From: Nitrososphaerales archaeon
Lineage (GTDB): Archaea > Thermoproteota > Nitrososphaeria > Nitrososphaerales > Gagatemarchaeaceae
Assembly: GCA_032906765.1 (NCBI GenBank)
Contig: JAJTZB010000001.1
Coordinates: forward strand, 1 to 64,000
Direction: 5' to 3'
Length of the DNA: 64,000 nt
A program made the translations under genes and the position numbers. Positions 1,023 to 54,166 of this stretch are shown here, one piece after another (position 1 is the stretch's first letter; each line of letters starts with the position of its first letter). Under the pieces are notes generated by a model. It did no database searches. It was given only the letters and a program-made list of their open reading frames with translations, and was not told the DNA's origin.

Positions 1023-3011
1023 CTATACGGAGATTTCCTTCTTGAGTTCAGAATAGGCATGCCTGACTTCTTCGACAGAGGCCTCGTCCTCTAGGGTGGT
1101 GACATCGCCGACTGGCTTGCCTACCACGACTGCTTGGACGACCCTCCTCATTATCTTGGCGCTCCTCGTTTTCGGGAGTCTCGAGACGAAGTAGACGTCC
1201 TTGAGCGAGGCGATTGGGCCGACCTTCTCCCTCACCCATTCGTTGAGCGTCTTCCTCAACTCCTCGGAACGAGTGTTCCCAGCCCTGAGAATCGCGAATG
1301 CGACAGGCACCTCCCCCTTCACTTCGTCTGGGATGCCGACAACAGCCGCCTCAGCCACGCTGGGGTGCTGGACGAGCGCTGACTCCAGCTCGTAGCTGCC
1401 CAGCCTGTGCCCCGCGACCTTGATCACCTCATCCGCTCGTCCCAGAATCCAGAAGTAACCGTCCTTGTCCTTCACCGCGTAGTCGCCCGCGTAGTAGGTT
1501 CCTGGGAACTTGCTGAAGTACACCTGCTTGAACCTCTCCGGGTCCTTGTAGATGGTAAGCGGCATTCCTGGCCATGGCTTCTTTATCACGAGGTACCCCC
1601 TCTCCCCCGCCTTCTGCGATGCCCCCTTGTCGTCGAAGACGTCTGCATCAATCCCGAGAATGGGCGGGCCGTTCGTGCCTGGCTTCATCGGAACCATCGC
1701 CTTGCCTGGAAGGTGGCTGATCAGAATCCCGCCAGTCTCGGTCATCCACCAGGTGCTTCCGAACGGGACCTCCTCCCTCCCTACCACCCTGTGGAACCAC
1801 TTGAACGCCTCGGGGTTGATCGGCTCGCCGACCGAGTGCATGAGGCGGACGGAAGATGTGTCGTGTCTGGTGACCCACTCGTCCCCGAACTTCATCCAGC
1901 CCCTGATCCCCGTTGGTGATGTATACAGTACGTTGACCTTGTGCCTCTCCACGATTGAGACCCACCTGTCTGGCTCGGGGTAGGTCGGGGAGCCTTCGTA
2001 CATCACTCCTGTCACTCCTTCCATGAGGGGGCCATAGACTGTGTACGAGTGTCCTGTCACCCATCCGATGTCGGCCGTGCACCAGTAGATGTCGTCGTCC
2101 TGGACATCGAAGACCCAGTGCAGCGTGGCGTGAAGCAAGGTCATGTAACCGCCGGTGTCGTGGACCTGCCCCTTCGGCTTGCCCGTGGTCCCCGAGGTGT
2201 AGAGGACGTAGAGCGGGTCTTCGGACTTCATCCTCTCTGGTTCGACGTACGCGTCCTGTGGGACATCGGCGAGGGCTTCATGGTACCAGTCGTCCCTACC
2301 TGCCTCCATGGCGACCTCGTTGCCAGCCCTCTTCACTACGAGGGAGTTCTTCACAGTGGCCGTCTTTCTCAGAGCTTCGTCGACAATCGACTTCAGTTGG
2401 ACGACCCTGCCCGCCCTGAAACCGCCGTCGGCCGTGATTATGAGTTTGGCCTCCGCGTCGTTCATCCTCTCTGCTATCGCTTCGGAGCTGAACCCAGAGA
2501 AGACGACGCTGTAGGCCACTCCGATTCTCGAGGCAGCGAGCATTACGATTGGCAGCTCAGGAATCATTGGCATGTAGATCCCTATCATGTCTCCTCTCTT
2601 GAGGCCGTACCTGTTCTTGAGGAGGTATGCCACCTTGTTCACCTCGGTGTACAGGTCGCCGTAGGTGAGGTTCCTCACCTCCTTTGGCCTGCCGTTCTCG
2701 TATGGCTCTCCCTCCCAAATCAGTGCGATCTTGTTCTTCCTCCACGATTGCGCATGCCTGTCGACGCAGAGGTAGCACGCGTTGAGTTCGCCTCCTACGA
2801 ACCACTTGTAGAAGGGTGGCTTCGACTCGTCGATTATCTTCGTCCACTGCTTGTACCAAGGGAGTTCCTTGGCGACTCCCGCCCAGAAGCTCTTGTACTT
2901 CCGGACGGAACTCAAGTGAGCACTGTGGTAGCTCTTGATTGGCACCATGTTCCGCCTGTCTTCCGGGGAAATCATCTCGTCGAACGGAAGAGCCCAGTTC
3001 ACGGACATCCG
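1023..3011 (-). CDS. acs: AMP-forming acetyl-CoA synthetase (acyl-CoA synthetase family)
   Basis: This enzyme activates a short carboxylic acid, most likely acetate, to its CoA thioester through an acyl-adenylate. Visible motifs are an N-terminal FYKWFVGGELNACYLCVDRH segment, the AMP-binding loop YTSGTTGKPKG, the acyl-pocket region STWWMTETGG, the hinge GRADEVIKVAGHRLGSYELE and the C-terminal PKTRSAKIMRR, whose last Lys is the catalytic, acetylatable residue. From the ATG at 3011 it is 662 residues, normal for Acs. The frame is open to a start at 3116, but a TATA-like TTTAAGC at about 3118-3124 predicts transcription from near 3095, so a later start is more likely. Propionate or 3-hydroxypropionate are possible substrates; sequence alone does not settle this. 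Confidence 0.9.
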   Translation of the reverse strand, partial: RMSVNWALPFDEMISPEDRRNMVPIKSYHSAHLSSVRKYKSFWAGVAKELPWYKQWTKIIDESKPPFYKWFVGGELNACYLCVDRHAQSWRKNKIALIWEGEPYENGRPKEVRNLTYGDLYTEVNKVAYLLKNRYGLKRGDMIGIYMPMIPELPIVMLAASRIGVAYSVVFSGFSSEAIAERMNDAEAKLIITADGGFRAGRVVQLKSIVDEALRKTATVKNSLVVKRAGNEVAMEAGRDDWYHEALADVPQDAYVEPERMKSEDPLYVLYTSGTTGKPKGQVHDTGGYMTLLHATLHWVFDVQDDDIYWCTADIGWVTGHSYTVYGPLMEGVTGVMYEGSPTYPEPDRWVSIVERHKVNVLYTSPTGIRGWMKFGDEWVTRHDTSSVRLMHSVGEPINPEAFKWFHRVVGREEVPFGSTWWMTETGGILISHLPGKAMVPMKPGTNGPPILGIDADVFDDKGASQKAGERGYLVIKKPWPGMPLTIYKDPERFKQVYFSKFPGTYYAGDYAVKDKDGYFWILGRADEVIKVAGHRLGSYELESALVQHPSVAEAAVVGIPDEVKGEVPVAFAILRAGNTRSEELRKTLNEWVREKVGPIASLKDVYFVSRLPKTRSAKIMRRVVQAVVVGKPVGDVTTLEDEASVEEVRHAYSELKKEISV

Positions 3012-3149
3012 CGTGGCAAGACTCTCAAGAGCTTCCAATAACCCTTTCCCATCAACGGCCTTACCTCTTAGGGATGCCCGCCGGAACCGGGTTCGTGTGC
3101 CCAGTGTCAGCCACACTGCTTAAATCGAGTTTCAGGACCGCCAGCGGGG

Positions 3150-3503
3150 TTGCAATCAATCAGCTCCCTTCTGAAGGGCAACCTGGCGTACGTCTTCGTC
3201 GTCGTTGGGTTGGTCTGGCTTGGCCTCGTGGTCCTCACAAGCTCAACGCTGGTGCTCTGGCCAGTGCTCGCGTGCCTGATCAGCGGTGCCTTGCTCAAAC
3301 TCCGCCCTGCCTCGAACCTGACGACTGCGTGGGCGAGCGCATCCGCTCTGATGGGTCTTGCGCTGTCAGCCTACCAGGTCTACGTCGCTGCCCCGCTGGT
3401 TACGAGCGATTTCGCCACCATAGCAGGGGCATCGGTGGCGGCCTTCGTTGTTTTTGGCCTCTTCCAACTGTACCTCTTGGCCGTCAGCTACTCCGCGAAG
3501 TAG
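3150..3503 (+). CDS. Small integral membrane protein, unknown function
   Basis: A 117-residue protein made almost wholly of hydrophobic segments, with about four predicted transmembrane helices (YVFVVVGLVWLGLVVL; VLWPVLACLISGALL; WASASALMGLALSAY; ASVAAFVVFGLFQLYLLAV). The start is a TTG at 3150, about 27 nt after a GCTTAAATCG TATA-like box shared with the divergent acyl-CoA synthetase, which suggests a leaderless transcript. I do not recognise a family. Its end abuts the convergent membrane-protein gene at 3505. Confidence 0.6.
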   Translation: MQSISSLLKGNLAYVFVVVGLVWLGLVVLTSSTLVLWPVLACLISGALLKLRPASNLTTAWASASALMGLALSAYQVYVAAPLVTSDFATIAGASVAAFVVFGLFQLYLLAVSYSAK

Positions 3504-3504
3504 C

Positions 3505-4026
3505 TCAGATCAGGTTTCCGTGTGTCAACCGCCTAATGAAATAGACAGAATAGCCGCTTATCACGAATAGCGCTGAGAAGGCTTTTGTCGCGAAGTTAAG
3601 GTTCCACGGGATTGGAATTCCGGTGGCTATGAACCTTGGATCTATCTCGCCTTTCAGGATGTCGACAGAGTAGAACGCCCCCCAGATCATGAAGTTGTAG
3701 AGCACCTCGTAGGCTGATGCGAATGCGATTAGGAAGCCGAGCAGCTGAAGGGTGTTGAGGACGCTCGCTGGCCACTTCGATATCCTCTCCTCCCAGAGCC
3801 TGAGGCCCGAGTAGAACAGGGCGACGCATGCGAGGCTGAAGTACGAAACAGGTTCCGCGAACCAAGGAAGCGGCCATTCCACGTTGACCAGGACTATGCC
3901 AATCGCGAGCCCTGTCCCGGTGGTCAGCAGCGATTCGACGACTCCGTAGGCCATGACGGCGACTATCACGAGGAGGGAAGCCCACATGATTATCCTGAAA
4001 ACACGTCTAGTCTTTGGGTCCATCAA
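3505..4026 (-). CDS. Membrane protein, unknown function (173 aa)
   Basis: This 173-residue protein has about four transmembrane segments, a short basic N-terminus (MMDPKTRRVFRI) and a positively charged C-terminal end. No catalytic or metal-binding motif is seen. It probably sits in the cytoplasmic membrane. It is convergent with the gene at 3150 and is followed upstream on the same strand by the glycosyltransferase at 4071, about 45 bp away, so the two may be co-transcribed. I do not recognise the family. Confidence 0.7.
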   Translation of the reverse strand: MMDPKTRRVFRIIMWASLLVIVAVMAYGVVESLLTTGTGLAIGIVLVNVEWPLPWFAEPVSYFSLACVALFYSGLRLWEERISKWPASVLNTLQLLGFLIAFASAYEVLYNFMIWGAFYSVDILKGEIDPRFIATGIPIPWNLNFATKAFSALFVISGYSVYFIRRLTHGNLI

Positions 4027-4070
4027 AGCCGTAGTTACCGCTTGCTAGGGGCTCGGCCTCCGACCGCCCT

Positions 4071-5087
4071 TTAAGCGTTCGTAGCCTGCGAACCAGCCGT
4101 CCTACCACGGTTCAGGATGAACCACATGAGCAGGATCTGAAAAGGCAGTTCGAGGTACCACCAAGAGAAGTCGCTCGGCAGGACCCAGATGGCGAGGAGG
4201 ATGAACCAGAAGGAGTTACTCATCGTAGACGCGATGTCGCGCGACCTCAAGGCTGCGAAGACCAGCGCAGCAATCGCACTTGGCAAACGGACCAGAATCG
4301 GCAGCCCTGTGCCTGTGATTGTGGCGGAGAGCCCGTCCAGGGTGGGGTTGACGTTGAAGCCGAAGGGCATCGGCGTCAACAGCGATTGCGGGATCCTAGC
4401 GAACTGAAATAGGATAGCGTCGTGCAAGAAGGAGTTGTAGTCCCAGACTAGGAAGGGAGAGATGACTGCCGCAGCAGCAATCAGACTGATTGCCACTTCG
4501 AGCATCCTCCCCTTCCTCAGGTACATGGCAACGAAGAGCGGGTAGAGTAGCCAGAGAAACTGGCTCGCAGCTAGTGAGATGCCAAGCAAGAGCGCCCCGA
4601 CTGCACCCTTCCCGCGCGCCTCCAAGGCCGCGAAGAGGCCGAGGAACGCCATGGCCACAAGAGTGTTGTTGGGATAGGAAGTCGAGAAGAGAGCAGTGAA
4701 CGGCGCGAGGAGGAATACGAGCGACGCTGTCCTCGCATGCCTTCCCCCGAGTGCGAGAATCGACAATGCGACGACAAGGTCTGCCGCGATCAGCCCTAAC
4801 CTGACATCCCATAACCCGAAGGGGAGAAGGAACAGCGGAACAGCAGGGAGATAGGCGAACACGTTCGATGCCCCCGGCGTCGCTAGCCAGACAGGCACGC
4901 CCGTGTAGAGGTGGCCGTAAGGGTCCAAGCCGTGGAGGAGGGCCTGCGCAGCCTGGCTGTCGTAGTAGTACACGTCCAGAAGCGGTGGGAGAAGCCAGGC
5001 CATCGCCAGCCTTGCGCCCACAGCAGCCAAGACAAGGCAAAGGAAGACCAACGTCCCGCGACCCATCGACTTGGGGACGATAGTCAA
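4071..5087 (-). CDS. Polytopic GT-C-type glycosyltransferase / mannosyltransferase-like membrane protein
   Basis: A 338-residue protein with roughly nine hydrophobic segments. After the first helix comes an acidic loop, LLDVYYYDSQAAQALLHGLDPYGHLYTG. A short acidic motif in the first external loop and a DPY element are typical of GT-C enzymes that use lipid-phosphate sugars (DUF2029 / PIG-M-like). The likely role is transfer of a sugar from a polyprenyl-phosphate donor on the outer face of the membrane. The nearby DegT aminotransferase and Dpm1-like synthase, which would make such a donor, fit this role. Acceptor and sugar are unknown. Confidence 0.7.
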   Translation of the reverse strand: MTIVPKSMGRGTLVFLCLVLAAVGARLAMAWLLPPLLDVYYYDSQAAQALLHGLDPYGHLYTGVPVWLATPGASNVFAYLPAVPLFLLPFGLWDVRLGLIAADLVVALSILALGGRHARTASLVFLLAPFTALFSTSYPNNTLVAMAFLGLFAALEARGKGAVGALLLGISLAASQFLWLLYPLFVAMYLRKGRMLEVAISLIAAAAVISPFLVWDYNSFLHDAILFQFARIPQSLLTPMPFGFNVNPTLDGLSATITGTGLPILVRLPSAIAALVFAALRSRDIASTMSNSFWFILLAIWVLPSDFSWWYLELPFQILLMWFILNRGRTAGSQATNA

Positions 5088-5157
5088 GGCATGCCTCCGC
5101 CCGTGGCTGGCCCATGATTCTCAAATACTCTTCCGCCGTGGGCAGGTCGGGAGAAGC

Positions 5158-6270
5158 TTGGATTTCATCCCGATAAACAAGCCAATCCTCGGAGAGGAGG
5201 AGAAGAGGGCAGTGCTGTCGGTAATTGAAAGCGGCATGCTGACTGACGCCTCCTTCGAGGGCGGGAAGATGGTTCGTGAACTGGAGGGGAAAATGAGGAG
5301 GCTCCTTGGCGTGAAGCACGTTGTTGCCACGAACTCTGGCACGGCTGCGCTCCACTGTTCCATGCTCGCGCTTGGGATCAAGAAGGGTGACGAAGTCGTA
5401 ATCCCGTCGTTCACGTTTGTGTCGACGGCGAACGTCGTGCTGGCATGCGGGGGCAAGCCAGTCTTCGTTGACAACAAAAGGGACTACAACATCGACCCAT
5501 CTGCGCTGAAGAGGGCGATCACTAGGAGGACGAAAGCAGTCATGCCTGTCCACCTCTACGGGTACCCGGCCGACATGGACGAAGTCAGGGAAATCGCGGC
5601 AAAGCACTCCGTGGCAGTGGTCGAGGACGCAGCTGAATCGCTCGGAGCAGAGTACAAGGGCCGGCAGACCGGGACGCTCTCAGACGTCGGCTGCTTCAGC
5701 CTCTACGCGACGAAGGTCGTGACTACCGGAGAGGGAGGGGCCATCTCGACGGACGACGATGATTTCGCTGACCGTCTCAGGCTTGTGAGGAATCACGGCA
5801 TGTTGCACGGGTACGACTCGAGGTATCTCGGGTTCAACTACAGGCTCACGGAAATCGCAGCCTCCATCGGGTCGGTCCAGATGGACAAACTCGCCTCATT
5901 CCTCGCAGCCAGGAGGAAGAACGCGGCGTACCTCAGCGAGCGGCTCGGGAACGTCAATGGCGCCGAGTTCAACCAGACGGCCTCGGACAGGACACACGTA
6001 TACTACCTCTACACCCTCTATCTCAGGAAGAAGCGCGACCAAGTGCTGGAGAAGCTGAAGGAAAAGGAAATTGGGGCTGCAGTCTACTTCAAGATGCCGG
6101 TCCACAGAACCCCCCTCTACGCGAAAGGAGGCTATGCTAGGCTGAGATTGAAGAACGCCGAGGACGCTGCAAAACACGTCCTCTCGCTTCCCGTCCACCC
6201 AGCCATCACGGACGATCAACTCAAGAGGGTGGCCGACGGATTCATCGAGGCCTCGTCCCTCATCGCCTAG
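5158..6270 (+). CDS. DegT/DnrJ/EryC1/StrS-family sugar aminotransferase
   Basis: A PLP-dependent aminotransferase that aminates nucleotide-linked keto-sugars. Visible are the N-terminal signature FIPINKPILGEEE, the cofactor-binding stretch VVATNSGTAALHCSMLAL, the VVEDAAESLGAEYKG segment whose Asp contacts the PLP ring nitrogen, and SLYATKVVTTGEGG carrying the Schiff-base Lys. The start chosen is the TTG at 5158, preceded by GGGAGAAG and a TATA-like TCAAATAC near 5116; this gives 370 residues, normal for the family. The frame is open to 5071, but that extension overlaps the divergent gene and is not family-like. It ends 7 bp before the glycosyltransferase gene, an operon arrangement for amino-sugar glycan or glycolipid synthesis. 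Confidence 0.9.
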   Translation: MDFIPINKPILGEEEKRAVLSVIESGMLTDASFEGGKMVRELEGKMRRLLGVKHVVATNSGTAALHCSMLALGIKKGDEVVIPSFTFVSTANVVLACGGKPVFVDNKRDYNIDPSALKRAITRRTKAVMPVHLYGYPADMDEVREIAAKHSVAVVEDAAESLGAEYKGRQTGTLSDVGCFSLYATKVVTTGEGGAISTDDDDFADRLRLVRNHGMLHGYDSRYLGFNYRLTEIAASIGSVQMDKLASFLAARRKNAAYLSERLGNVNGAEFNQTASDRTHVYYLYTLYLRKKRDQVLEKLKEKEIGAAVYFKMPVHRTPLYAKGGYARLRLKNAEDAAKHVLSLPVHPAITDDQLKRVADGFIEASSLIA

Positions 6271-6277
6271 GATAGTC

Positions 6278-7003
6278 GTGAGGTACAGACGCTTGAAGGT
6301 GTGCATGGTGGTCCCGACATATAACGAGAGAGAGAACATCGCGCCCCTCCTCGAACGGCTGGGTAAGGTGGCGCTTGAAGGCCTGCATGTGCTGTTTGTC
6401 GACGATTCCAGCCCCGATGGAACGGCCGACGTCGTGAGGGAGGCGATGAAGGGGAATGAGTCGGTGCACGTTCTGATCAGGGAAGGCAAGAAGGGCATAG
6501 GCTCTGCTCACATCGAAGGGTTTGCAAGGGCGCTGGAGACCCTGTCGCCAGACGTGTTGATAGAGATGGACGCGGACCTCCAGCATCCCCCAGAGAAGAT
6601 TCCGGACCTGGTCGCGGCGATTGCAAATGGAGCGGACGTCGCTGTGGCCTCGAGGAAGGTTGAAGGCGGCGGGACCGAGGGATGGAGCTTGTGGAGGAGA
6701 GGTGTGAGCAAGGGGGCGAACGTGATGGCCAAAGTCGTTCTCGGTTTGGGGGTAAACGACTCGACCTCCGGCTTCAGGGCCCTGAGCTCGAGGGCGACGC
6801 GGGTGCTCGTGGACTCGGAGCTTCCTTCTCAGAGCTACTTCTTCCAGGTGGCGTCGCTCTACCTCCTGAAGAAGAGAGGTATGAAAATGGTCGAGGTGCC
6901 ATTCAGGTTCCAGGCCAGGAAGGCCGGCAAGTCGAAGATGGGAATAAGCGAAATCGTTGGTTTTCTGCTCGGCGTTTGGAAACTGCGCCTGTTCGGCGTC
7001 TAG
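6278..7003 (+). CDS. Dolichol/polyprenyl-phosphate mannosyltransferase-like GT2 glycosyltransferase
   Basis: A 241-residue family-2 glycosyltransferase of the Dpm1 type. Motifs are VVPTYNERENI (nucleotide-sugar binding), VDDSSPDGTADVV, EMDADLQHPPEKIP (the DAD metal site and the DLQHPPE box typical of DPM synthases) and a late FRFQARKAGKSKMG stretch. The enzyme would transfer mannose or a similar sugar from the nucleotide donor to polyprenyl phosphate, making the substrate for GT-C transferases such as the one at 4071. It lacks the C-terminal membrane helices of longer DPM forms. The start is a GTG at 6278, 7 bp after the aminotransferase stop. Confidence 0.88.
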   Translation: MRYRRLKVCMVVPTYNERENIAPLLERLGKVALEGLHVLFVDDSSPDGTADVVREAMKGNESVHVLIREGKKGIGSAHIEGFARALETLSPDVLIEMDADLQHPPEKIPDLVAAIANGADVAVASRKVEGGGTEGWSLWRRGVSKGANVMAKVVLGLGVNDSTSGFRALSSRATRVLVDSELPSQSYFFQVASLYLLKKRGMKMVEVPFRFQARKAGKSKMGISEIVGFLLGVWKLRLFGV

Positions 7004-7004
7004 C

Positions 7005-7081
7005 GTGGGTTTGGACCGGGAGAAGAGGCTCTTAGACACGATACTCGAAATCGTGAGAACGATACTGAGTGAGTATCTGTC
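7005..7081 (+). pseudogene. 5' fragment of a gene cut off by an insertion-sequence remnant
   Basis: A GTG one base after the stop of the Dpm1-like gene opens a frame encoding about 25 residues, VGLDREKRLLDTILEIVRTI and onward, a plausible amphipathic N-terminus. At about 7080 the sequence becomes recognisable transposase 3' sequence in another frame. Operon-like spacing suggests a third gene of the sugar cluster, truncated when the IS arrived. The missing 3' part is not found after the right end of the mobile segment at 9526, where the rpo12 promoter begins, so the rest seems deleted. Identity unknown; chance coding cannot be excluded. Confidence 0.35.
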
Positions 7082-7194
7082 GAGGGCGAGAACAAGTGGC
7101 TCACAATCATCCAGAACGCCTCCCATGTCCAGAGAGTTAACAGCGAGAAGAAATTGGAGGCAGATGCCTGATGGCCTCCCAAGTTAACAGAACC
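7082..7194 (+). mobile_element. 3'-end remnant of an IS6-like element (transposase C-terminus plus right inverted repeat)
   Basis: Translation from 7082 gives EGENKWLTIIQNASHVQRVN and so on to a TGA at 7169-7171, clearly homologous to the C-terminus of the intact transposase ending at 9503 (EGSDKWLTIIQNASLPTKVD). About 10 bp further on, AAGTTAACAGAACC (7181-7194) matches the outer end of that element's right inverted repeat. The remnant is therefore the right tip of a diverged relative. The intact element begins 8 bp later at 7203, so the two lie in direct orientation. Confidence 0.85.
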
Positions 7195-7427
7195 CGTTTG
7201 AGGGTTCTGTAAACTCTTAGTCGGAGTTCCCCCAAGTCTTCTCCGTGTAAAATCTCGTCGGATGGGTGCTTCCAGTTGATTGCGCACCATCCTCTGCTTT
7301 CCGTTCCGAAGAACCACTCACCCTCGAAGAACCACTGAAAGGGCTTGATTTGACATCTGTGGGCTGGAAACTCCTCGGCTATCAGGTCAAGTCTGCAAGT
7401 CGGGCAACAGATGACATTCTCAGTCAA
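7137..7427 (-). CDS. IS passenger protein 3: small Cys-rich protein whose C-terminus reads out of the element
   Basis: A 96-residue protein starting ATG at 7427, overlapping the preceding gene by 4 bp. The N-terminus MTENVICCPTCRLD and a later CQIKPFQWFF segment give a possible zinc knuckle. The middle is rich in Trp and Phe (WFFEGEWFFGTESRGWCAINW). The frame crosses the left inverted repeat at 7203 with no stop, so the last ~20 residues come from flanking DNA and would differ at each insertion site. Function unknown. It is co-transcribed with the two genes upstream (7424-7936 and 7940-8155). Confidence 0.6.
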   Translation of the reverse strand: MTENVICCPTCRLDLIAEEFPAHRCQIKPFQWFFEGEWFFGTESRGWCAINWKHPSDEILHGEDLGELRLRVYRTLKRVLLTWEAIRHLPPISSRC

Positions 7428-7936
7428 GGGTTAGTCGCCTCGTAGTTGGCCTTTCCTGATTTGGCTTGGGCAATCAGCTTGGGAACTTCTATGTTGACGA
7501 ACTTGGCAATGGTGAGATAGGCTTCGGCCAAGTCGTTCATTTTGCCAGAAAGGAGTTTATCCTTCTCATTCACCCTCCTTTCGAGTTCCTTAATTCTGGT
7601 TTCATATCCCTTTATCTCCTTCTCGTGCTCCCTCGCTTCTCTTTTGTCTGCTATCTCCTCCAGCTTGGCCAAGTTCTTCAGTTCTTCTTGGTCGGCTTCG
7701 ACAATGTCCACGGGTGCGAGAAGCTCACCCCTCTGGAAGAGGTGTGTTTCCTTACACTTGGAACACCGAACTTCCACTTCATCACCACTTCCCTTGGGAA
7801 ACTTCATTGTTGAGTAGACATAGACTTGGGGTGAGTGGTAGGCCTCACCTTCGTAGAAGTAGTCGTCGAAGTCGAGTTTCTGCTGTGTCTTAGGGCAGAT
7901 GGCACTCCAACGTCTGTCGGGGAAGTGGCCAACCAT
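7424..7936 (-). CDS. IS passenger protein 2: zinc-knuckle and coiled-coil protein, unknown function
   Basis: A 170-residue protein. The first 60 residues contain ICPKTQQKLDFDDYFYEGEAY and then CSKCKETHLFQRGEL, a CxxC half-site that may bind zinc. Residues ~90-140 are a charged coiled coil (EEIADKREAREHEKEIKGYE). The ATG lies 3 nt after the stop of the ribbon-helix-helix gene and the end overlaps the next gene by 4 bp, so translation is probably coupled. No known catalytic motif is seen; an accessory role in transposition, DNA binding or host interaction is only a guess. Confidence 0.65.
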   Translation of the reverse strand: MVGHFPDRRWSAICPKTQQKLDFDDYFYEGEAYHSPQVYVYSTMKFPKGSGDEVEVRCSKCKETHLFQRGELLAPVDIVEADQEELKNLAKLEEIADKREAREHEKEIKGYETRIKELERRVNEKDKLLSGKMNDLAEAYLTIAKFVNIEVPKLIAQAKSGKANYEATNP

Positions 7937-7939
7937 GTG

Positions 7940-8155
7940 CTATTTCTTCTCCTTCAGATACTTCTCAACGAGCGAATGGATGCGCGGGTCTACCCACCAT
8001 TCGACTGCCTCAGAGACAGCCTCTCCTAACGCCCCCTTGCGGAAACCTTTCCGTTCTACGACGGCTTTGCGGAACTTGTTATCAAGCTCCTTCTCCCATT
8101 CTACTGTCGTCTTCATCTTCTCGACGCTCGGCTTCTCCTCGCCCGCCTTGTCCAT
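7940..8155 (-). CDS. IS passenger protein 1: small CopG/ribbon-helix-helix-like DNA-binding protein
   Basis: A 71-residue protein with LDNKFRKAVVERKGFRKGAL followed by GEAVSEAVEWWV, the pattern of archaeal ribbon-helix-helix regulators (strand, KG turn, two helices). The start at 8155 is preferred over the longer frame from 8299 because a strong TATA box, CTTATATATGG on the minus strand (8175-8185), lies 25 nt upstream, implying a leaderless message. It is the first gene of the passenger operon. The divergent intergenic region carries repeated ATGGG/CCCAT half-sites, so it probably represses both operon and transposase. Confidence 0.7.
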   Translation of the reverse strand: MDKAGEEKPSVEKMKTTVEWEKELDNKFRKAVVERKGFRKGALGEAVSEAVEWWVDPRIHSLVEKYLKEKK

Positions 8156-8170
8156 GCCTTCTATCGGGAT

Positions 8171-8240
8171 ATGCCCATATATAAGATTGAATGGGTTCCC
8201 ATAGGTATTAATATGCCCATGTGTATGGGTGTATGGGCAT
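8171..8240. promoter_or_regulatory. Divergent promoter with an array of ATGGG/CCCAT half-sites (putative operator)
   Basis: Between the divergent passenger operon and the transposase transcript lie ATGCCCAT (8171-8178), ATGGGTTCCCAT (8191-8202, a perfect 5-bp inverted repeat), ATGCCCAT (8213-8220), ATGGGT (8225-8230) and ATGGGCAT (8233-8240). They interleave with a leftward TATA (8175-8185) and a rightward TATTAATATG box (8206-8215). Such a half-site array covering both TATA boxes is typical of autoregulation by a ribbon-helix-helix dimer. The binding protein is inferred. Confidence 0.6.
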
Positions 8241-8334
8241 GACAACCGAACAACTCCGACACGAAATGGACGCCGACGAGTTCGAGGAGCTTTCTTCATA
8301 CCTCGAACAGAGACGCGAGATGGAGGCGGACTGA
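8239..8334 (+). CDS. 31-residue acidic small ORF translationally coupled to the transposase
   Basis: ATG at 8239 encodes MTTEQLRHEMDADEFEELSS plus 11 further residues, ending EMEAD, a very acidic helical peptide. Its TGA shares one base with the transposase ATG (TGATG at 8332-8336), the classic stop-start overlap for coupled translation. A TATA-like TATTAATATG lies about 28 nt before the ATG, so this ORF would be the leaderless first cistron. It is too short to assign to a family. It may only be a leader setting transposase expression. Confidence 0.55.
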   Translation: MTTEQLRHEMDADEFEELSSYLEQRREMEAD

Positions 8335-9503
8335 TGAATCAGTTCAACCTCCGAGCGACCTTCAACGAACGGGAGGCGAGGGGTTCCGAAATCGCCCACG
8401 AGTTCGGATGGGTTCAACGTGTGGATGAGTTCTCCTACCGCGTCCATTCGCAGAAGCTCGACAAGGAATACCAAGTCCAGAAGACCGAGACGGGGTGGGC
8501 CTGCTCCTGCCCTGACTCGAAGTATAGGCTCGTGAAGTGCAAGCACGTCTGGGCTGTCGAGATTTCATGGACTCTGAGAGAGCAGGTCAGGAAGTCAGTG
8601 GTGATTCAGACGGTCAAGATTGATGTCTGTCTCTTCTGCGGGTCAGGTCGGCTGGTAAAGGATGGGATAAGGCGGAACAAGACGGGCGATATCCAGAAGT
8701 TCGAATGCCGAGAATGCGGGAGATACTTCACGGTGAACATCGGGTTCGAGAAGATGAAACATGACCCGAAGGGGATTACGATGGCGATTCAACTCTACTT
8801 CTCAGGAGAGAGCCTACGGAACACGCAGAAGGCTCTCCGTCTGCTCGGCGTTCAAGTCTCGCATCAGACAATCTACAAGTGGATTCAGAAATACGTCGGG
8901 CTGATGGACAGGTATCTGGACAAACTGACTCCACAGGTCTCGGACACTTGGAGGGCCGACGAGCTATACTTCAAGGTGAGGGGCAACATGAAGTATCTGT
9001 TCGCCATGATGGACGACGAGACGCGGTTCTGGATAGCCCAACAGGTTTCAGACACTAAGTTCAAGGCGGGGGTGAGGCCTCTGTTCGCGGAGGCCAAGCG
9101 GGTCGCAGGGAAGCGACCTCTGACCCTGATAACCGATGGCGGCCACCACTTCAATCAACCGTTCAAGAAGGAGTTCTACTCTAAGCATGCCCCGTTCTCC
9201 ATGCACGTCAGAGACATCAGACTGAGCGGCCAAGTCCACAATAACAAGATGGAGCGCATGAACGGGGAGATTCGGGATAGGGAGAAGGTGATGAGGGGGC
9301 TAAAGCGGAAGGACACGCCCATTCTGAAAGGGTATCAAATCTACCACAACTTCATCAGGCCACACGAATCTTTGAACGGTGAGACTCCTGCAGAAAAGGC
9401 GGGTATCAAGGTCGAGGGTTCGGACAAGTGGCTAACCATCATCCAAAACGCGAGCCTTCCGACGAAAGTTGACAGGGAACCGAAGGAGGTCGAATCCGCC
9501 TAA
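8334..9503 (+). CDS. SWIM-domain DDE transposase, IS6-like
   Basis: This 389-residue transposase has three parts. Residues ~54-75 form a SWIM zinc motif, CSCPDSKYRLVKCKHVW (CxC...CxH). Residues ~99-131 form a zinc ribbon, CLFCGS...FECRECGRYF. The rest is an RNase-H-fold DDE domain with a preceding HTH (NTQKALRLLGVQVSHQTIYK). Catalytic residues in IS6-like context are Asp209 (WRADELYFKV), Asp268 (LITDGGHHF) and Glu307 (NNKMERMNGEIRDREK). All are intact, so the enzyme is probably active. The ATG at 8334 overlaps the stop of the upstream small ORF. A SWIM domain is not part of standard bacterial IS6 enzymes, which are ~230 residues. Confidence 0.92.
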   Translation: MNQFNLRATFNEREARGSEIAHEFGWVQRVDEFSYRVHSQKLDKEYQVQKTETGWACSCPDSKYRLVKCKHVWAVEISWTLREQVRKSVVIQTVKIDVCLFCGSGRLVKDGIRRNKTGDIQKFECRECGRYFTVNIGFEKMKHDPKGITMAIQLYFSGESLRNTQKALRLLGVQVSHQTIYKWIQKYVGLMDRYLDKLTPQVSDTWRADELYFKVRGNMKYLFAMMDDETRFWIAQQVSDTKFKAGVRPLFAEAKRVAGKRPLTLITDGGHHFNQPFKKEFYSKHAPFSMHVRDIRLSGQVHNNKMERMNGEIRDREKVMRGLKRKDTPILKGYQIYHNFIRPHESLNGETPAEKAGIKVEGSDKWLTIIQNASLPTKVDREPKEVESA

Positions 9504-9528
9504 GAGTTGACAGCACCCGTTTGAGAAA

Positions 9529-9538
9529 GATACAAATA
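9529..9538 (+). promoter_or_regulatory. TATA box of rpo12
   Basis: GATACAAATA is centred about 29 nt upstream of the rpo12 ATG (9564), fitting a leaderless archaeal transcript. The target-site duplication of the IS6-like element ends at 9525, so the IS lies where the BRE and upstream region would be. Confidence 0.6.
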
Positions 9539-9563
9539 CGAGCGACGGAGGCTGGCCCCATCC

Positions 9564-9764
9564 ATGTCAGAGGCACCTGTTGAACCCCCGAAGCCGGCAG
9601 AGCAGGTCAAGGTATTCGTAGGCGCCGTCTACGAGTGCGTGCGGTGCGGGACCAGGACCACCCAAGAAGAGCTCTCGAAGCTCCCTGAAGTGAAGTGCAT
9701 CTGCGGTTACAGGGTCTTCAAGAAGGTGCGCCCCTCGGTCGTGAAGCAAATTAAGGCAGTCTAG
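9564..9764 (+). CDS. rpo12: DNA-directed RNA polymerase subunit Rpo12 (RpoP)
   Basis: A 66-residue zinc-ribbon subunit, the counterpart of eukaryotic Rpb12. After a 20-residue Pro-rich lead come YECVRCGTRTTQEELSKLPE and VKCICGYRVFKKVRPSVVKQ, the normal order: zinc pair, loop, second pair, and the VRP motif that contacts Rpo3/Rpo10. The second Cys pair is spaced CxC rather than CxxC. The ATG at 9564 follows the TATA box by about 25 nt. The IS element immediately upstream could alter its transcription. Confidence 0.88.
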   Translation: MSEAPVEPPKPAEQVKVFVGAVYECVRCGTRTTQEELSKLPEVKCICGYRVFKKVRPSVVKQIKAV

Positions 9765-9809
9765 CCTCATTCCCAGCTGAACACGCAGGAACCCAGCATC
9801 GGTACGTAC

Positions 9810-10265
9810 TCAACCTGAACTCTCGCGCTTTTCCGACCCAGACCTGAGGAACAGGAAGAAGGGCTCGGCGAGCCTTGCGGTCAGCAGCCCGTCGTCGGTG
9901 AGGCTGTATTCTACCCTTGGCGGCCTCGCCGACAGGACCTCTCGTCTGACAAATCCCATCGCCTCCAGCTTCTTGAGCTTGAGCGACAGCACCCTCCTGC
10001 TAATGGGTCTCAGCGTCTTCCTCAGCTCCTCGAATCCCATCTTCTTCGTAGTGTAGAGTGCGACTACGATCTCTGGGGCCCACTTGCCAAAGATTGCCTT
10101 CGTTATGCGGAGGTTAAGGTCGACCGATTCCTTGGATCCGTAGGGAGAAGCGGGGGTTGGGTAGACCTCTCGGGAGAAGGCCGATGCCTGGAGGGCGAAC
10201 TTCTCGAAGAGGCTTCTGAGCTCCTTCCTGCTGCGTCCGCTCGGCTCCAATCGGACGGAGAACAC
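9810..10265 (-). CDS. HxlR-family winged-helix transcriptional regulator
   Basis: The protein is 151 residues from the GTG at 10265. The HxlR winged helix covers residues ~50-125: FGKWAPEIVVALYTTKKMGF, then EELRKTLRPISRRVLSLKLK and a wing RREVLSARPPRVEYSLTDDG. A GTTTAATACG box at about 10272-10281 suggests transcription starts near 10252, so a TTG at 10250 could be the true start. It is convergent with rpo12 and divergent from the HMG-CoA synthase operon; control of that operon is possible but unproven. Confidence 0.82.
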   Translation of the reverse strand: MFSVRLEPSGRSRKELRSLFEKFALQASAFSREVYPTPASPYGSKESVDLNLRITKAIFGKWAPEIVVALYTTKKMGFEELRKTLRPISRRVLSLKLKKLEAMGFVRREVLSARPPRVEYSLTDDGLLTARLAEPFFLFLRSGSEKRESSG

Positions 10266-10391
10266 TGTCGTCGCGTATTAAACGGATTGGGAGCCCGGTC
10301 TTGCAAGAAGGTTCGACGTTTGGCTAAGACTCGAAGCCTTATTTGCAGTATAATTTATGTAGCCGTCGAATTGGCCACGGATGATTCCCGG

Positions 10392-11435
10392 ATGCACGTT
10401 ATGAAGACAGTTAACCCAGTCGCCATCCTCGGCTACGGGGCTTACATCCCGTACTACAGGCTCCCGACCACGGAGATAGCGAGGATTTGGAAGGGAGGAG
10501 GCTCTGGTCCGAACGTCGAGAAGGCGGTCGCCTCCACAGACGAGGACGTCGTGACGATGGCTATCGAAGCGGGGAGGAGCGCGGTGACGATGGCTGGTGT
10601 CGACCACCTCGGCGCAGTCTTCGTGGGGACGGAGTCGAAACCGTACGCGGTCAAACCGACTAGCACTATGGTCTCTCAAGCCCTCGGGCAGCACCATACC
10701 CTGGCGGCCGACCTGGAGTTCGCATGCAAGGCAGGTACGGAAGCGATGCAGGTGGTCATCGGGTTGGTAGGGTCAGGCATGATAGATGCAGGCCTCGCAA
10801 TCGGGATGGACACAGCGCAGGGGAGACCCGGAGATGACCTTGAGTACACGGCAGCCAGTGGGGGAGCTGCCTTCGTTTTCGGCAAGAAGGACAAGAATGC
10901 GGTAGCGGCCATAGACTGCAGCACCTCCTACGTCTCGGACACGGGCGATTTTTGGAGGCGGGCGCACGAACGCTACCCGCGGCACCTTTCGAGGTTCACT
11001 GGCGAACCCGCGTACTTCACCCACACAGAGAACGCTGTCAGGACGCTCTTCAAGGAGACGGGCCACAAGGCCAGCGACTTCGACTACGCTGTCTTCCACC
11101 AGCCTAACCCCAGGTTCCCCGTGGAGGTAGCTCTGAGGCTGGGGTTCACTGTCGACCAGGTGAAGACAGGATTACTCAACCCGATGATAGGCAACACCTA
11201 CGCAGGGAGTTCGCCGATAGGGCTGGCCGCCATCCTGGACGAAGCGAAGTCGGGGGACAAGATACTCATGTGCAGTTTCGGGTCGGGCGCGGGCTCCGAC
11301 GCCTTCTGTATCGAGGTGTTGGATGGCATAGAGGAGAGAAGGGGAAAGACGCCCACAGTGAAGTCGTTGCTCCAAAGGTCAATCAAGATTGATTACGCCA
11401 CCTACACAAAGTACAGGGGAAAGCTACAGAAGTAG
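10392..11435 (+). CDS. Hydroxymethylglutaryl-CoA synthase (archaeal type)
   Basis: This enzyme condenses acetyl-CoA with acetoacetyl-CoA to HMG-CoA, the second step of isoprenoid-lipid synthesis by the mevalonate pathway. The catalytic residues are visible: Glu in FVGTESKPYAVKPTS, the nucleophilic Cys in LEFACKAGTEAMQ and His in YAVFHQPNPRFP. From the ATG at 10392 the protein is 347 residues, normal for archaea (10401 is also possible). The frame is open to 10287, but that stretch spans the TATA-like region GTATAATTTATG (10348-10359). It is the first gene of a three-gene operon with thiolase and DUF35. Confidence 0.93.
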   Translation: MHVMKTVNPVAILGYGAYIPYYRLPTTEIARIWKGGGSGPNVEKAVASTDEDVVTMAIEAGRSAVTMAGVDHLGAVFVGTESKPYAVKPTSTMVSQALGQHHTLAADLEFACKAGTEAMQVVIGLVGSGMIDAGLAIGMDTAQGRPGDDLEYTAASGGAAFVFGKKDKNAVAAIDCSTSYVSDTGDFWRRAHERYPRHLSRFTGEPAYFTHTENAVRTLFKETGHKASDFDYAVFHQPNPRFPVEVALRLGFTVDQVKTGLLNPMIGNTYAGSSPIGLAAILDEAKSGDKILMCSFGSGAGSDAFCIEVLDGIEERRGKTPTVKSLLQRSIKIDYATYTKYRGKLQK

Positions 11436-36734: not shown

Positions 36735-36742
36735 CTTTAAAG
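36735..36742 (-). promoter_or_regulatory. TATA box of gatD at the edge of the TnpB element
   Basis: CTTTAAAG is centred ~29 nt before the gatD ATG (36709). Its outermost two bases are already the first bases of the TnpB element's inverted repeat (36741), so the BRE of gatD is supplied by the element. Confidence 0.6.
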
Positions 36743-37988
36743 TTCTGCTAAGTTGTCGAGACATGCCCTAACCACCTAACTTCGGGACTTCTGCTCGGAG
36801 GATTGGAGCCGTCGTCGCCTCGTTCCCCTTCACAGCTTCATCTGTGCCCCGCGCTCCTGCCTGAACCATTGGCAGACATGGTATCTTCCCGCGCCTCTCG
36901 ATGTTCACCGCAGCATTGAGGTCGCGGTCGAGCTGGCACCCACACGATGGGCATTGCCAACTCCGTTCCGTTATCTTCAGCTTCTTGTTGACATGGTGGC
37001 AGTAAGAGCATTCCTTGGATGTATTCCTAGGATTGACGAACTCGACCTGGACTCCGGCCCACGCCGCCTTGTAAGCAATCTGCTGTTGGAGCTGTCGGAA
37101 TGGCCAGAGGTTGGCCCTTCGGCGGGAGTCGCGTCCCTTTCCATTCCCCTTCCTGTGGGCCTTCCGAATCCCATTGAGTCGTTCAAGGATTATTGCCTGC
37201 CTGTTCTTGACGGCCTTCTCAACGACCTGCTTGGAGATGACGTTGAGGGTTTGCGTGACGCGTTCCTTCTCCCTCCTTGAACCAGCGAATTTCCGCTTCA
37301 ACCGCCTGTCGTTGGGATGCCTAGCGTAGAACTCGCTGCGCCTGACACCATATTCAGTGTGAAGTCGCGCGACTTTGGAGAGGTCGATTCGGGTGCCATC
37401 GCTCCCAACAATGGATTTGTGGTTCAGGTCGTATCCGACCTTTCTCAGGGGCTCGGCGACCGCCGTCTCTTTCGAGAAGGCGATGACGATTGTGAAGTCG
37501 GTCATAGTCACCGAGCCCCGCTTGAGGGTCGTGTTCATCAGGAAGGAACGTTGCCAGTCGCCGTATTGAAGAGGTATCAGGATTCGCTGGCCTTTCCTGT
37601 TTGGGAGGCTAAGTATGCCGTAGTTGAGGGAGTAGCTGGCGGAGTCCATCTTGAGCATTAGCCTAGAAGCGAATGGCTCCCGCTGCCAGCGGCGGTGCTT
37701 CTTGACTATCGACCAGGCGATCTCGGCCACGGAGTAAGGGTAGCAGGAGACGACGCCATATCGCTCCCGGAACTCGCGGTAGATGCGACTGCGTAGTTTC
37801 AAGCGACCCTTGATGCTCTCGACAAGGCAGATGTGGATAGCCTGGTTCACCATCATACGAAAGTTTTCGAGGAGTTCTCTCGTCTCTGATGTGGGTTTGT
37901 ACGTGAACCTGACGGCCTTGACCGACTTCACGATTACATTGTTTTGGTTTCTATTTGACCGCCCATGCCTCAACCACCTAACAGAACT
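36741..37988 (-). mobile_element. TnpB-only transposable element 1 with degenerate terminal inverted repeats
   Basis: The ends 36741-36765 and 37964-37988 are inverted repeats matching at 20 of 25 positions, both beginning AGTTCTG. The segment also carries a 19-bp direct repeat, CATGCC(CT/TC)AACCACCTAAC, at 36762-36780 and 37964-37982. No target duplication is visible, so this copy looks older than the one at 52913. Layout matches that copy: tnpB starts 57 bp from one end and its stop is 27 bp from the other. There is no tnpA. Confidence 0.7.
36768..37931 (-). CDS. tnpB: TnpB RNA-guided endonuclease (IS200/IS605-type OrfB), copy 1
   Basis: A 387-residue TnpB. RuvC-like catalytic motifs are all present: VGYDLNHKSIVGSDG (first Asp), IILERLNGIRKAHRKGNG (Glu), and DRDLNAAVNI (last Asp). 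The zinc finger CSYCHHVNKK ... CPSCGCQ is complete. TnpB is the ancestor of Cas12 and cuts DNA guided by an RNA from the element end. The GTG at 37931 is chosen because family homology begins there and TCAAATAG lies ~20 nt upstream; the open frame extends to 38324 into non-homologous DNA. The stop lies 27 bp from the element end, so any guide scaffold must lie within the 3' coding part. Confidence 0.88.
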   Translation of the reverse strand: MKSVKAVRFTYKPTSETRELLENFRMMVNQAIHICLVESIKGRLKLRSRIYREFRERYGVVSCYPYSVAEIAWSIVKKHRRWQREPFASRLMLKMDSASYSLNYGILSLPNRKGQRILIPLQYGDWQRSFLMNTTLKRGSVTMTDFTIVIAFSKETAVAEPLRKVGYDLNHKSIVGSDGTRIDLSKVARLHTEYGVRRSEFYARHPNDRRLKRKFAGSRREKERVTQTLNVISKQVVEKAVKNRQAIILERLNGIRKAHRKGNGKGRDSRRRANLWPFRQLQQQIAYKAAWAGVQVEFVNPRNTSKECSYCHHVNKKLKITERSWQCPSCGCQLDRDLNAAVNIERRGKIPCLPMVQAGARGTDEAVKGNEATTAPILRAEVPKLGG

Positions 37989-52900: not shown

Positions 52901-52912
52901 GTTTTGCTGAAG

Positions 52913-54143
52913 GGTTCTGTCCAGTCTTCGTTTGGTGGCGCTTAAATGGATCCGGGCGGATTCTGACTATGCGGTCAACCATCTCTGTCAAGTTCTGCTA
53001 TCGGCCCTCTGCCGACCTCTCCTCTCTTTTCGAGGACTTCCGCCTGATGTGCAACGACGCCATTGGAATCGCCCTCAAAGAGAACCCGAAGAATAGGTTT
53101 GGGCTCATCGAGTCGGCTTATCCCCGCCTGAAGGAATACGGCCTCCACACCCACTACATCCTCTCTGCCTGCGAGGTGGCCTACTCGGTCTATCGCAACA
53201 AGAATCGAAAATCCGACCCGTACATCGAGCAAGCGTTCATCAAGCTGGACAACCAGACCTACACTCTGAACCATCTTCTGCTGAGAATCCCAATCAGGCC
53301 AAGAGAATTCGTCCATCTCACGCTCCAAGGTTCCGACTATCACCTCTCCTTCATCGAAGAACCGACTCTCAAGAGGGGTTCTGTGACAATCACTGACCGC
53401 ACAATCAGTTTGGCCGTCTCGAAAGAGGTTGTCGCCATCGAGCCTCTGGGAAACGTCGGAATCGACGTGAACGAGAGAAACGTCACCGCGTCTGACACTC
53501 TCGGCAACACAAAGGTCTATGATACATCTCAGGTAGCGGAGGTCAGAGAGACCTACCGAGCTATCAAGGCGAAGATAGGCCACAGAACCAGACAGGACAG
53601 AAGGGTCGGCCAGAGACTCTACTCCAAATACGGCAAGCGCGAGAAGGACAGAACCATCCAAGCCCTCCACAGGGTCTCGAAGGCCATAGTCGAACACGCC
53701 CGGAATAACCGTCTTGGAATCAGGATGGAGAAGCTGAAAGGAATCAGGAAGCTGTATCGGAAAGGGAACGGTCAGGGAACATCATACAGAGGAAGGATGA
53801 ATTCATGGACTTTCCACGAAGTCCAGAGGCAAGTGGAATACAAGGCGGCATGGCTCGGCGTGCCCGTCTCCTACGTCAATCCGAGAGGCACGTCCCGAAA
53901 CTGTGCAAAATGTCACTCCCGCATGGAGTCGCTTGAGGACAGAAGGATGCTCTGCCCTTGCGGTCGGGTCTGGGATAGGGACGTGAACGCCTCAAGAAAC
54001 ATCATGATGGCCTGCGCGGTTCCGCAGGCTCGGTCACCAAAGGGAAGCAGTGAAGGGGAACGAGACGACGATGGCTCCAATCCTCAGAGCAGATTGGTGG
54101 AAGTCAGGTCTTCTTCTTGACCAAACGAAGACTGGACAGAACC
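52913..54143 (+). mobile_element. TnpB-only transposable element 2 with perfect 24-bp TIRs and 8-bp TSD
   Basis: The ends 52913-52936 and 54120-54143 are perfect 24-bp inverted repeats starting GGTTCTGTCCAGTC. Both are flanked by TGCTGAAG (52905-52912 and 54144-54151), an exact 8-bp duplication. The 1231-bp element encodes only TnpB. IS200/IS605 elements have neither inverted repeats nor duplications, whereas the IS6-like element at 7203 has both and shares the terminal GGTTCTGT (14 of the first 18 bases match its left end). A DDE transposase probably moves it in trans. Perfect repeats imply recent insertion. Confidence 0.92.
52969..54120 (+). CDS. tnpB: TnpB RNA-guided endonuclease, copy 2
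   Basis: A 383-residue TnpB related to the copy at 36768. RuvC motifs are VGIDVNERNVTASDT (Asp166), LGIRMEKLKGIRKLYRKG (Glu254) and WDRDVNASRNI (Asp336/338). The zinc finger CAKCHSRMES ... LCPCGRVW has a CxC second pair instead of CxxC. A CTTAAATGG TATA box (about 52941-52949) sits just inside the left inverted repeat, ~25 nt before the ATG, so the element brings its own promoter. The stop codon touches the right repeat, leaving almost no 3' non-coding DNA for a separate guide-RNA scaffold. Confidence 0.92.
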   Translation: MRSTISVKFCYRPSADLSSLFEDFRLMCNDAIGIALKENPKNRFGLIESAYPRLKEYGLHTHYILSACEVAYSVYRNKNRKSDPYIEQAFIKLDNQTYTLNHLLLRIPIRPREFVHLTLQGSDYHLSFIEEPTLKRGSVTITDRTISLAVSKEVVAIEPLGNVGIDVNERNVTASDTLGNTKVYDTSQVAEVRETYRAIKAKIGHRTRQDRRVGQRLYSKYGKREKDRTIQALHRVSKAIVEHARNNRLGIRMEKLKGIRKLYRKGNGQGTSYRGRMNSWTFHEVQRQVEYKAAWLGVPVSYVNPRGTSRNCAKCHSRMESLEDRRMLCPCGRVWDRDVNASRNIMMACAVPQARSPKGSSEGERDDDGSNPQSRLVEVRSSS

Positions 54144-54166
54144 TGCTGAAGAAATCTGGGCTGATC

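Follow-up and report, generated by a model that had tools for sequence, protein, structure and literature searches.

The usual explanation for the role of TnpB, the ancestor of Cas12, is peel-and-paste transposition, where the donor site is left empty by TnpA. The tnpB gene described here, found in a 64,000-nucleotide stretch of DNA from a Nitrososphaerales archaeon (the window), is the sole sensible gene of an element spanning positions 52913-54143. Like IS200/IS605 and IS1341-type systems, it combines a TnpB fold and D-E-D RuvC residues with a predicted omega-RNA at the 3′ end of the gene, a putative target-adjacent motif (TAM) in the left flank and a guide that would start from the right boundary. 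Unlike IS200/IS605, the element has inverted repeats and an 8-bp target-site duplication (TSD) and no TnpA, and its TAM-like bias is an enrichment, not a strict insertion site.

The closest parallel comes from Fanzor1 and Fanzor2* of eukaryotes and their viruses, TnpB-family nucleases in DNA transposons with terminal inverted repeats and TSDs (PMC10711439, PMC3627910). The SfAV Fanzor1 element is non-autonomous and carries Fanzor only, a terminal repeat being predicted in its guide-RNA scaffold (PMC10711439, PMC3627910). In Fanzor1/2* the TSD is predicted to lie in the scaffold as well, whereas here a TAM-like motif stands 5′ of the TSD, so that the guide should start with the TSD; moreover, ours is a prokaryotic TnpB in an IS6-like element. 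With IS6/IS26 and archaeal IS6-like elements (PMC7986276, PMC6807381) the locus shares GG-CTGT tips, 8-bp TSDs and, in its partners, the DDE_Tnp_IS240 domain; it differs in a 389-aa SWIM-bearing transposase, element sizes of 2-4.5 kb, a longer inner repeat consensus and the tnpB cargo. A review of IS6 lists one passenger of unknown function, not tnpB (PMC7986276). A reanalysis argues for setting the archaeal members apart from IS6/IS26 (PMC6807381), and IS6-like is therefore a better name than the IS6 label used in the preliminary description of this locus. Archaeal miniature inverted-repeat transposable elements (for example in Haloquadratum, PMC3119063) are likewise non-autonomous, with ends and a TSD length matching those of an element that has a transposase; they are mostly non-coding, whereas a conserved, selected RNA-guided nuclease is carried here. 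Searches of the open-licence literature turned up the eukaryotic Fanzor cases only and no prokaryotic DDE element with a TnpB; we claim novelty provisionally. On comparative sequence evidence, the locus is very probably a non-autonomous IS6-like DDE transposon whose sole cargo is an active-looking TnpB with its omega-RNA, a complex that would cut empty sites and thereby preserve the insertion.

The element is 1231 bp long. Its 24-bp inverted repeats, the left one GGTTCTGTCCAGTCTTCGTTTGGT at 52913-52936 and the right one at 54120-54143, are complementary at 24 of 24 positions in a repeat scan, and exact copies of the duplication TGCTGAAG flank them at 52905-52912 and 54144-54151. Between the repeats, tnpB (52969-54120, + strand) encodes 383 aa from an ATG start, and its stop codon abuts the right repeat. 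The preliminary description had reported a lone tnpB with intact RuvC motifs between perfect repeats and an exact duplication, all of which is correct. In 20 dinucleotide-block shuffles of the window, no pair combined an exact 8-bp TSD with inverted-repeat identity of at least 17/20; under the same thresholds the real window holds exactly two, the elements at 52913 and 7203.

This tnpB element is not a one-off. We gathered tnpB relatives from the host genome, its relatives, its class and public genome contigs, and scanned their surroundings for ends and duplications (20-bp inverted repeats matching at 13/20 or better, TSD at 7/8 or 8/8). The result was 40 distinct tnpB-only elements in 29 archaeal genomes, 30 of them with an exact TSD; the carriers are Thaumarchaeota of several families, Nitrosotalea, Bathyarchaeota, an Asgard bin, Sysuiplasma and others. 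Their ends are close to GGTTCTGTTAACTCTTCGG, with a GGTTCTGTnAnsTcTTCGG-like consensus. No TSD-bearing element held tnpB and a transposase together. Empty sites are available for two loci. For element L282, dozens of congeneric genomes have an uninterrupted site, and the closest aligned ones carry a single TGAAATAA; for L276, relatives carry a single GAAAACCG at the empty site. Since both empty sites hold one TSD copy, insertion is precise, with an 8-bp duplication.

These data bear on whether the locus could be an ordinary IS200/IS605 or IS1341-type element moved by a Y1 TnpA, its repeats and duplication being coincidental or due to later rearrangement. The TnpB family and the TAM/guide geometry, with the guide running from the right boundary, are indeed IS200/IS605-like. 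Such an origin has next to no probability and is already contradicted by the perfect inverted repeats, the 8-bp TSD exact in 30 cases, the single-copy TSD at empty sites and the lack of any match to Y1/HUH TnpA (PF01797) in the host genome, in a search for which control genomes were positive. The preliminary description had named an HUH TnpA, or empty sites lacking the 8-bp duplication, as findings that would count against its proposal; both were sought, the former in the host, and neither turned up.

The affiliation of the tnpB elements with IS6-like transposons follows from the 8-bp TSD (30 exact, two empty sites), the GG tips and the CTGT motif. No IS6-type DDE transposase is encoded in the tnpB element, so it is at most a non-autonomous relative. 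Searching with the SWIM/IS6-like transposase and scanning the surroundings of its matches, we obtained 19 transposase elements whose ends resemble those of the tnpB elements and whose 8-bp TSDs are exact; most of their transposases, not all, have a SWIM domain. The window itself contains an element of this candidate trans-mobiliser type, a SWIM-DDE (IS6-like) element at 7203-9517 (7195-9525 with its duplications, + strand) whose TSD CGTTTGAG stands at 7195-7202 and 9518-9525. Its 389-aa transposase (8334-9503, + strand) matches PF13610 (E 5.8e-13, over the cut-off) and PF04434 SWIM, and matches NF033587 transpos_IS6 with an E-value of 7.3e-32 that is nevertheless under the NCBIfam cut-off. The preliminary description had singled out this element as the end match. 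The two ends, GGTTCTGTCCAGTCTTCG at 52913 and GGTTCTGTAAACTCTTAG at 7203, do agree at 14 of 18 bases, but the 7203 element is not the closest one: the tnpB repeat shares 19 of 24 bases with an element on host contig C2 and 21 of 24 with one in a relative. A recognisable IS6/SWIM transposase is present in 19 of the 25 carrier genomes tested, in some only as a fragment; for the Asgard copy, on a short contig, transposase ends were not found. We infer that the window tnpB sits in a non-autonomous IS6-like element moved in trans. The earlier proposal that tnpB rides a non-autonomous element with SWIM-DDE ends thus gains support from about 40 parallel cases, from the matching ends and TSD length of SWIM-DDE elements, from two empty sites with a single TSD copy and from the absence of Y1 TnpA in the host genome.

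Two further observations concern the SWIM-DDE element of the window. At 7130-7202 the C-terminal part of another transposase survives as a remnant, its own right end GTTAACAGAACC abutting the duplication of the 7203 element; one element is inserted directly beside another. Besides the transposase, two antisense open reading frames (170 and 119 aa) lie at 7424-8299 on the minus strand; related elements measure 2-4.5 kb, and this transposon group may commonly carry accessory genes.

The window protein belongs to the TnpB family with a RuvC D-E-D triad and a zinc finger. It matches NF040570 guided_TnpB (E 2.9e-32, 112.4 bits, cut-off 100) as well as PF07282, and the RuvC residues D166, E254 and D336/D338 are invariant in 16 relatives. 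Structures similar to its AlphaFold model (mean predicted local distance difference test score 81) are those of Cas12f and TnpB-omegaRNA, 8h1j among them with E 1.6e-13. The C-terminal 35 residues, whose codons overlap the omega-RNA, are modelled as unstructured. Of twelve pairs, the nine whose alignment could be used gave a ratio of non-synonymous to synonymous substitution rates (dN/dS) of 0.11-0.24; two pairs (14 and 20 codons), for which the open reading frame caller had taken fragments of frameshifted copies, and one with saturated dS were set aside. The gene is under purifying selection. From the flank motif and the omega-RNA described below, we argue that TnpB probably remains functional in these elements. 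Placement in the eukaryotic or viral Fanzor clade with its rearranged RuvC signature was considered and, on family match and alignment, rejected: the archaeal sequences match canonical guided_TnpB, with E254 aligned and invariant.

A conserved core is shared by the last 150 nt of 63 elements. In the window the predicted omega-RNA scaffold occupies 54011-54143 (+ strand), overlapping the 3′ end of tnpB and terminating at the element boundary, with stems at 54011-54016/54023-54028, 54034-54039/54095-54100 and 54103-54110/54130-54137. Across 12 diverse elements, 18 of the 20 pairs in the three helices show two-sided changes; the covariation score is 0.62, compared with 0.20 in shuffled alignments (0/500 reach it) and at most 0.22 when slid. 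In the last helix, a conserved upstream arm pairs with the inner eight bases of the right inverted repeat, which form the 3′ arm of the stem. This pairing averages 6.1 of 8 over the 63 elements, compared with 5.2 after swapping partners (0/1000) and at most 3.6 after sliding. Because the last helix uses the right repeat, the transposon end appears to double as a guide-RNA stem, with the RNA ending at the element boundary. It is covariation alone that places an omega-RNA at the tnpB 3′ end and the right boundary: an Rfam search of the window element gave no match, and the automatic position relative to the stop codon was mixed (several tnpB copies are frameshifted, and the open reading frame caller took fragments) and was not used.

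The flanks of the 40 elements carry a one-sided motif, first noticed in six of them. On the tnpB-5′ side, TTN directly precedes the TSD in 27 of 40 elements, compared with 6 of 40 on the far side (Fisher p=3e-6). For TT at -3 and -2, discordant pairs stand at 22:1 (p=6e-6), and at 17:1 (p=1.4e-4) without the six discovery elements; among later-fetched loci the motif is present in 7/12 on the tnpB-5′ side and 1/12 on the other. Transposase elements have TT on 7 of 38 sides, and T followed by A, G or T is seen in 33/40 tnpB elements versus 8/38 transposase-element sides (p=7e-8). At unrelated sites, near relatives among the TnpBs have the same motif down to its third base: most members of the window's clade have TTT, the Asgard/TA group and two paired Bathyarchaeota have TTG, and GTTA and AATA are each seen in one pair. 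In the window, TTT at 52902-52904 (+ strand), directly 5′ of the duplication, is the proposed TAM. The TSD sequence itself is not conserved across elements; the guide should therefore begin with the first TSD base. The proposed guide of the window omega-RNA comprises about 20 nt of flank (54144-54163, + strand; length taken from known TnpBs), and its first 8 nt would be the right copy of the TSD, a role deduced from the position of the TAM. Its first 16 nt match the host genome at this place only, allowing up to 2 mismatches.

One alternative is passive hitch-hiking: tnpB, trapped between IS6-like ends, would ride as a passenger without a role for the nuclease, and the TTN bias would reflect target preference of the transposase or base composition. 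Passenger genes do occur in insertion sequence families, IS6 having one recorded (PMC7986276), and 13 of the 40 elements lack the motif. We nevertheless regard hitch-hiking as unlikely. With two near-identical repeats, a transposase has hardly any means of generating a motif on one side only, whereas a TAM read by TnpB can give one-sidedness. In addition, the bias is restricted to the tnpB-5′ side and is not seen in transposase elements, the inverted repeat itself takes part in the omega-RNA covariation, dN/dS has the low values given above, and the association turns up repeatedly in different archaeal phyla.

The bias might instead arise at insertion and not by later selection, if TnpB or its RNA complex joined in target choice and steered the DDE transposase to the TAM. 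The motif lies directly against the insertion point on one side, and CRISPR-guided DDE transposition is reported for Tn7-like elements (PMC11406308). Against this, TnpB and the transposase show no protein link and belong to different elements, the motif is missing from a third of insertions, and post-insertion selection explains the bias without new parts; such steering is very unlikely. Its fuller version, in which TnpB and omega-RNA would direct or license the transposase to TAM-adjacent sites and the repeat would be both transposase binding site and guide-RNA stem, we judge quite improbable. If true, TnpB-licensed targeting would give archaea a DDE transposition pathway assisted by RNA and protein.

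Selection by cutting of empty sites, our preferred explanation, would work as follows. An IS6-like transposase supplied in trans would move the tnpB element, and the resulting omega-RNA would carry a guide whose first base is also the first of the duplicated target. An allele without the element (TTN, 8-bp target and flank) would then be a full target, in the window TTT-TGCTGAAGAAATCTGG, with a predicted cleavage substrate of TTT followed by TGCTGAAGAAATCTGGGCTG. The filled locus would be spared at both ends: the full match on the right is preceded by ...GAACC, not TTN, and the TTN-preceded copy on the left could pair with only 8 nt of the guide. Once the empty allele is cut, homologous repair would copy the element back from the filled allele. 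TAM-adjacent insertions would persist because cutting of the empty allele restores the element. The one-sided motif and the covarying omega-RNA appear to lend independent support to cutting of empty sites by TnpB, which the preliminary description had already suggested.

Several points weigh against this explanation. TT at -3 and -2 is missing from 13 of 40 elements, so the TAM may be favoured but not required, or some TAMs may be clade-specific; TAM statistics for the window clade alone are small. Six of the 25 carrier genomes, several of them incomplete, gave no transposase match at the threshold used, and elsewhere fragments only were found. Phylogenetic relatedness is not removed by the partner-swap tests of the omega-RNA; it is retained in the slide control, which is however biased towards the structure named. 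Finally, replicative IS6-type movement would leave the donor filled, so that an empty-site cutter is less obviously needed than under peel-and-paste.

Should cutting of empty sites hold, the benefit of the nuclease would be separable from TnpA chemistry, TnpB being paired here with a DDE transposase whose own choice of sites ignores the TAM. The flank bias would be a natural readout of TnpB selection, in which the third motif base can be read from genomes for many TnpBs. The locus would also mirror, in a prokaryote, the way eukaryotic DNA transposons captured Fanzor, though with another solution at the boundary: the repeat is recoded into RNA and the TSD left as guide. Compact archaeal TnpBs with predicted TAMs (TTT, TTG, TTA, AATA) may serve as tools.

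The window contains a second, older tnpB element of the same family (36741-37988, minus strand), with AGTTCTG ends, an intact tnpB frame, a recognisable omega-RNA and no remaining TSD; it is likely old or rearranged. An unanchored search for tnpB in other end types yielded ten weak pairs that lack the motif, have unrelated ends and are most likely fortuitous. Elsewhere in the host genome, at 5250-6454 of locus L086 (contig C4), a 1205-bp element with perfect 20-bp repeats GGTAGTGTCCCAGTTATATT and the 8-bp duplication TGAAAAGA contains neither tnpB nor a SWIM transposase, and possibly represents a different DDE family. At 1643-10940 of locus L341 (genome G175), two transposase elements of 2338 and 2487 bp share the duplication TGTTTCGA and lie about 4.4 kb apart, which looks like a composite or tandem arrangement from IS6-like cointegration.
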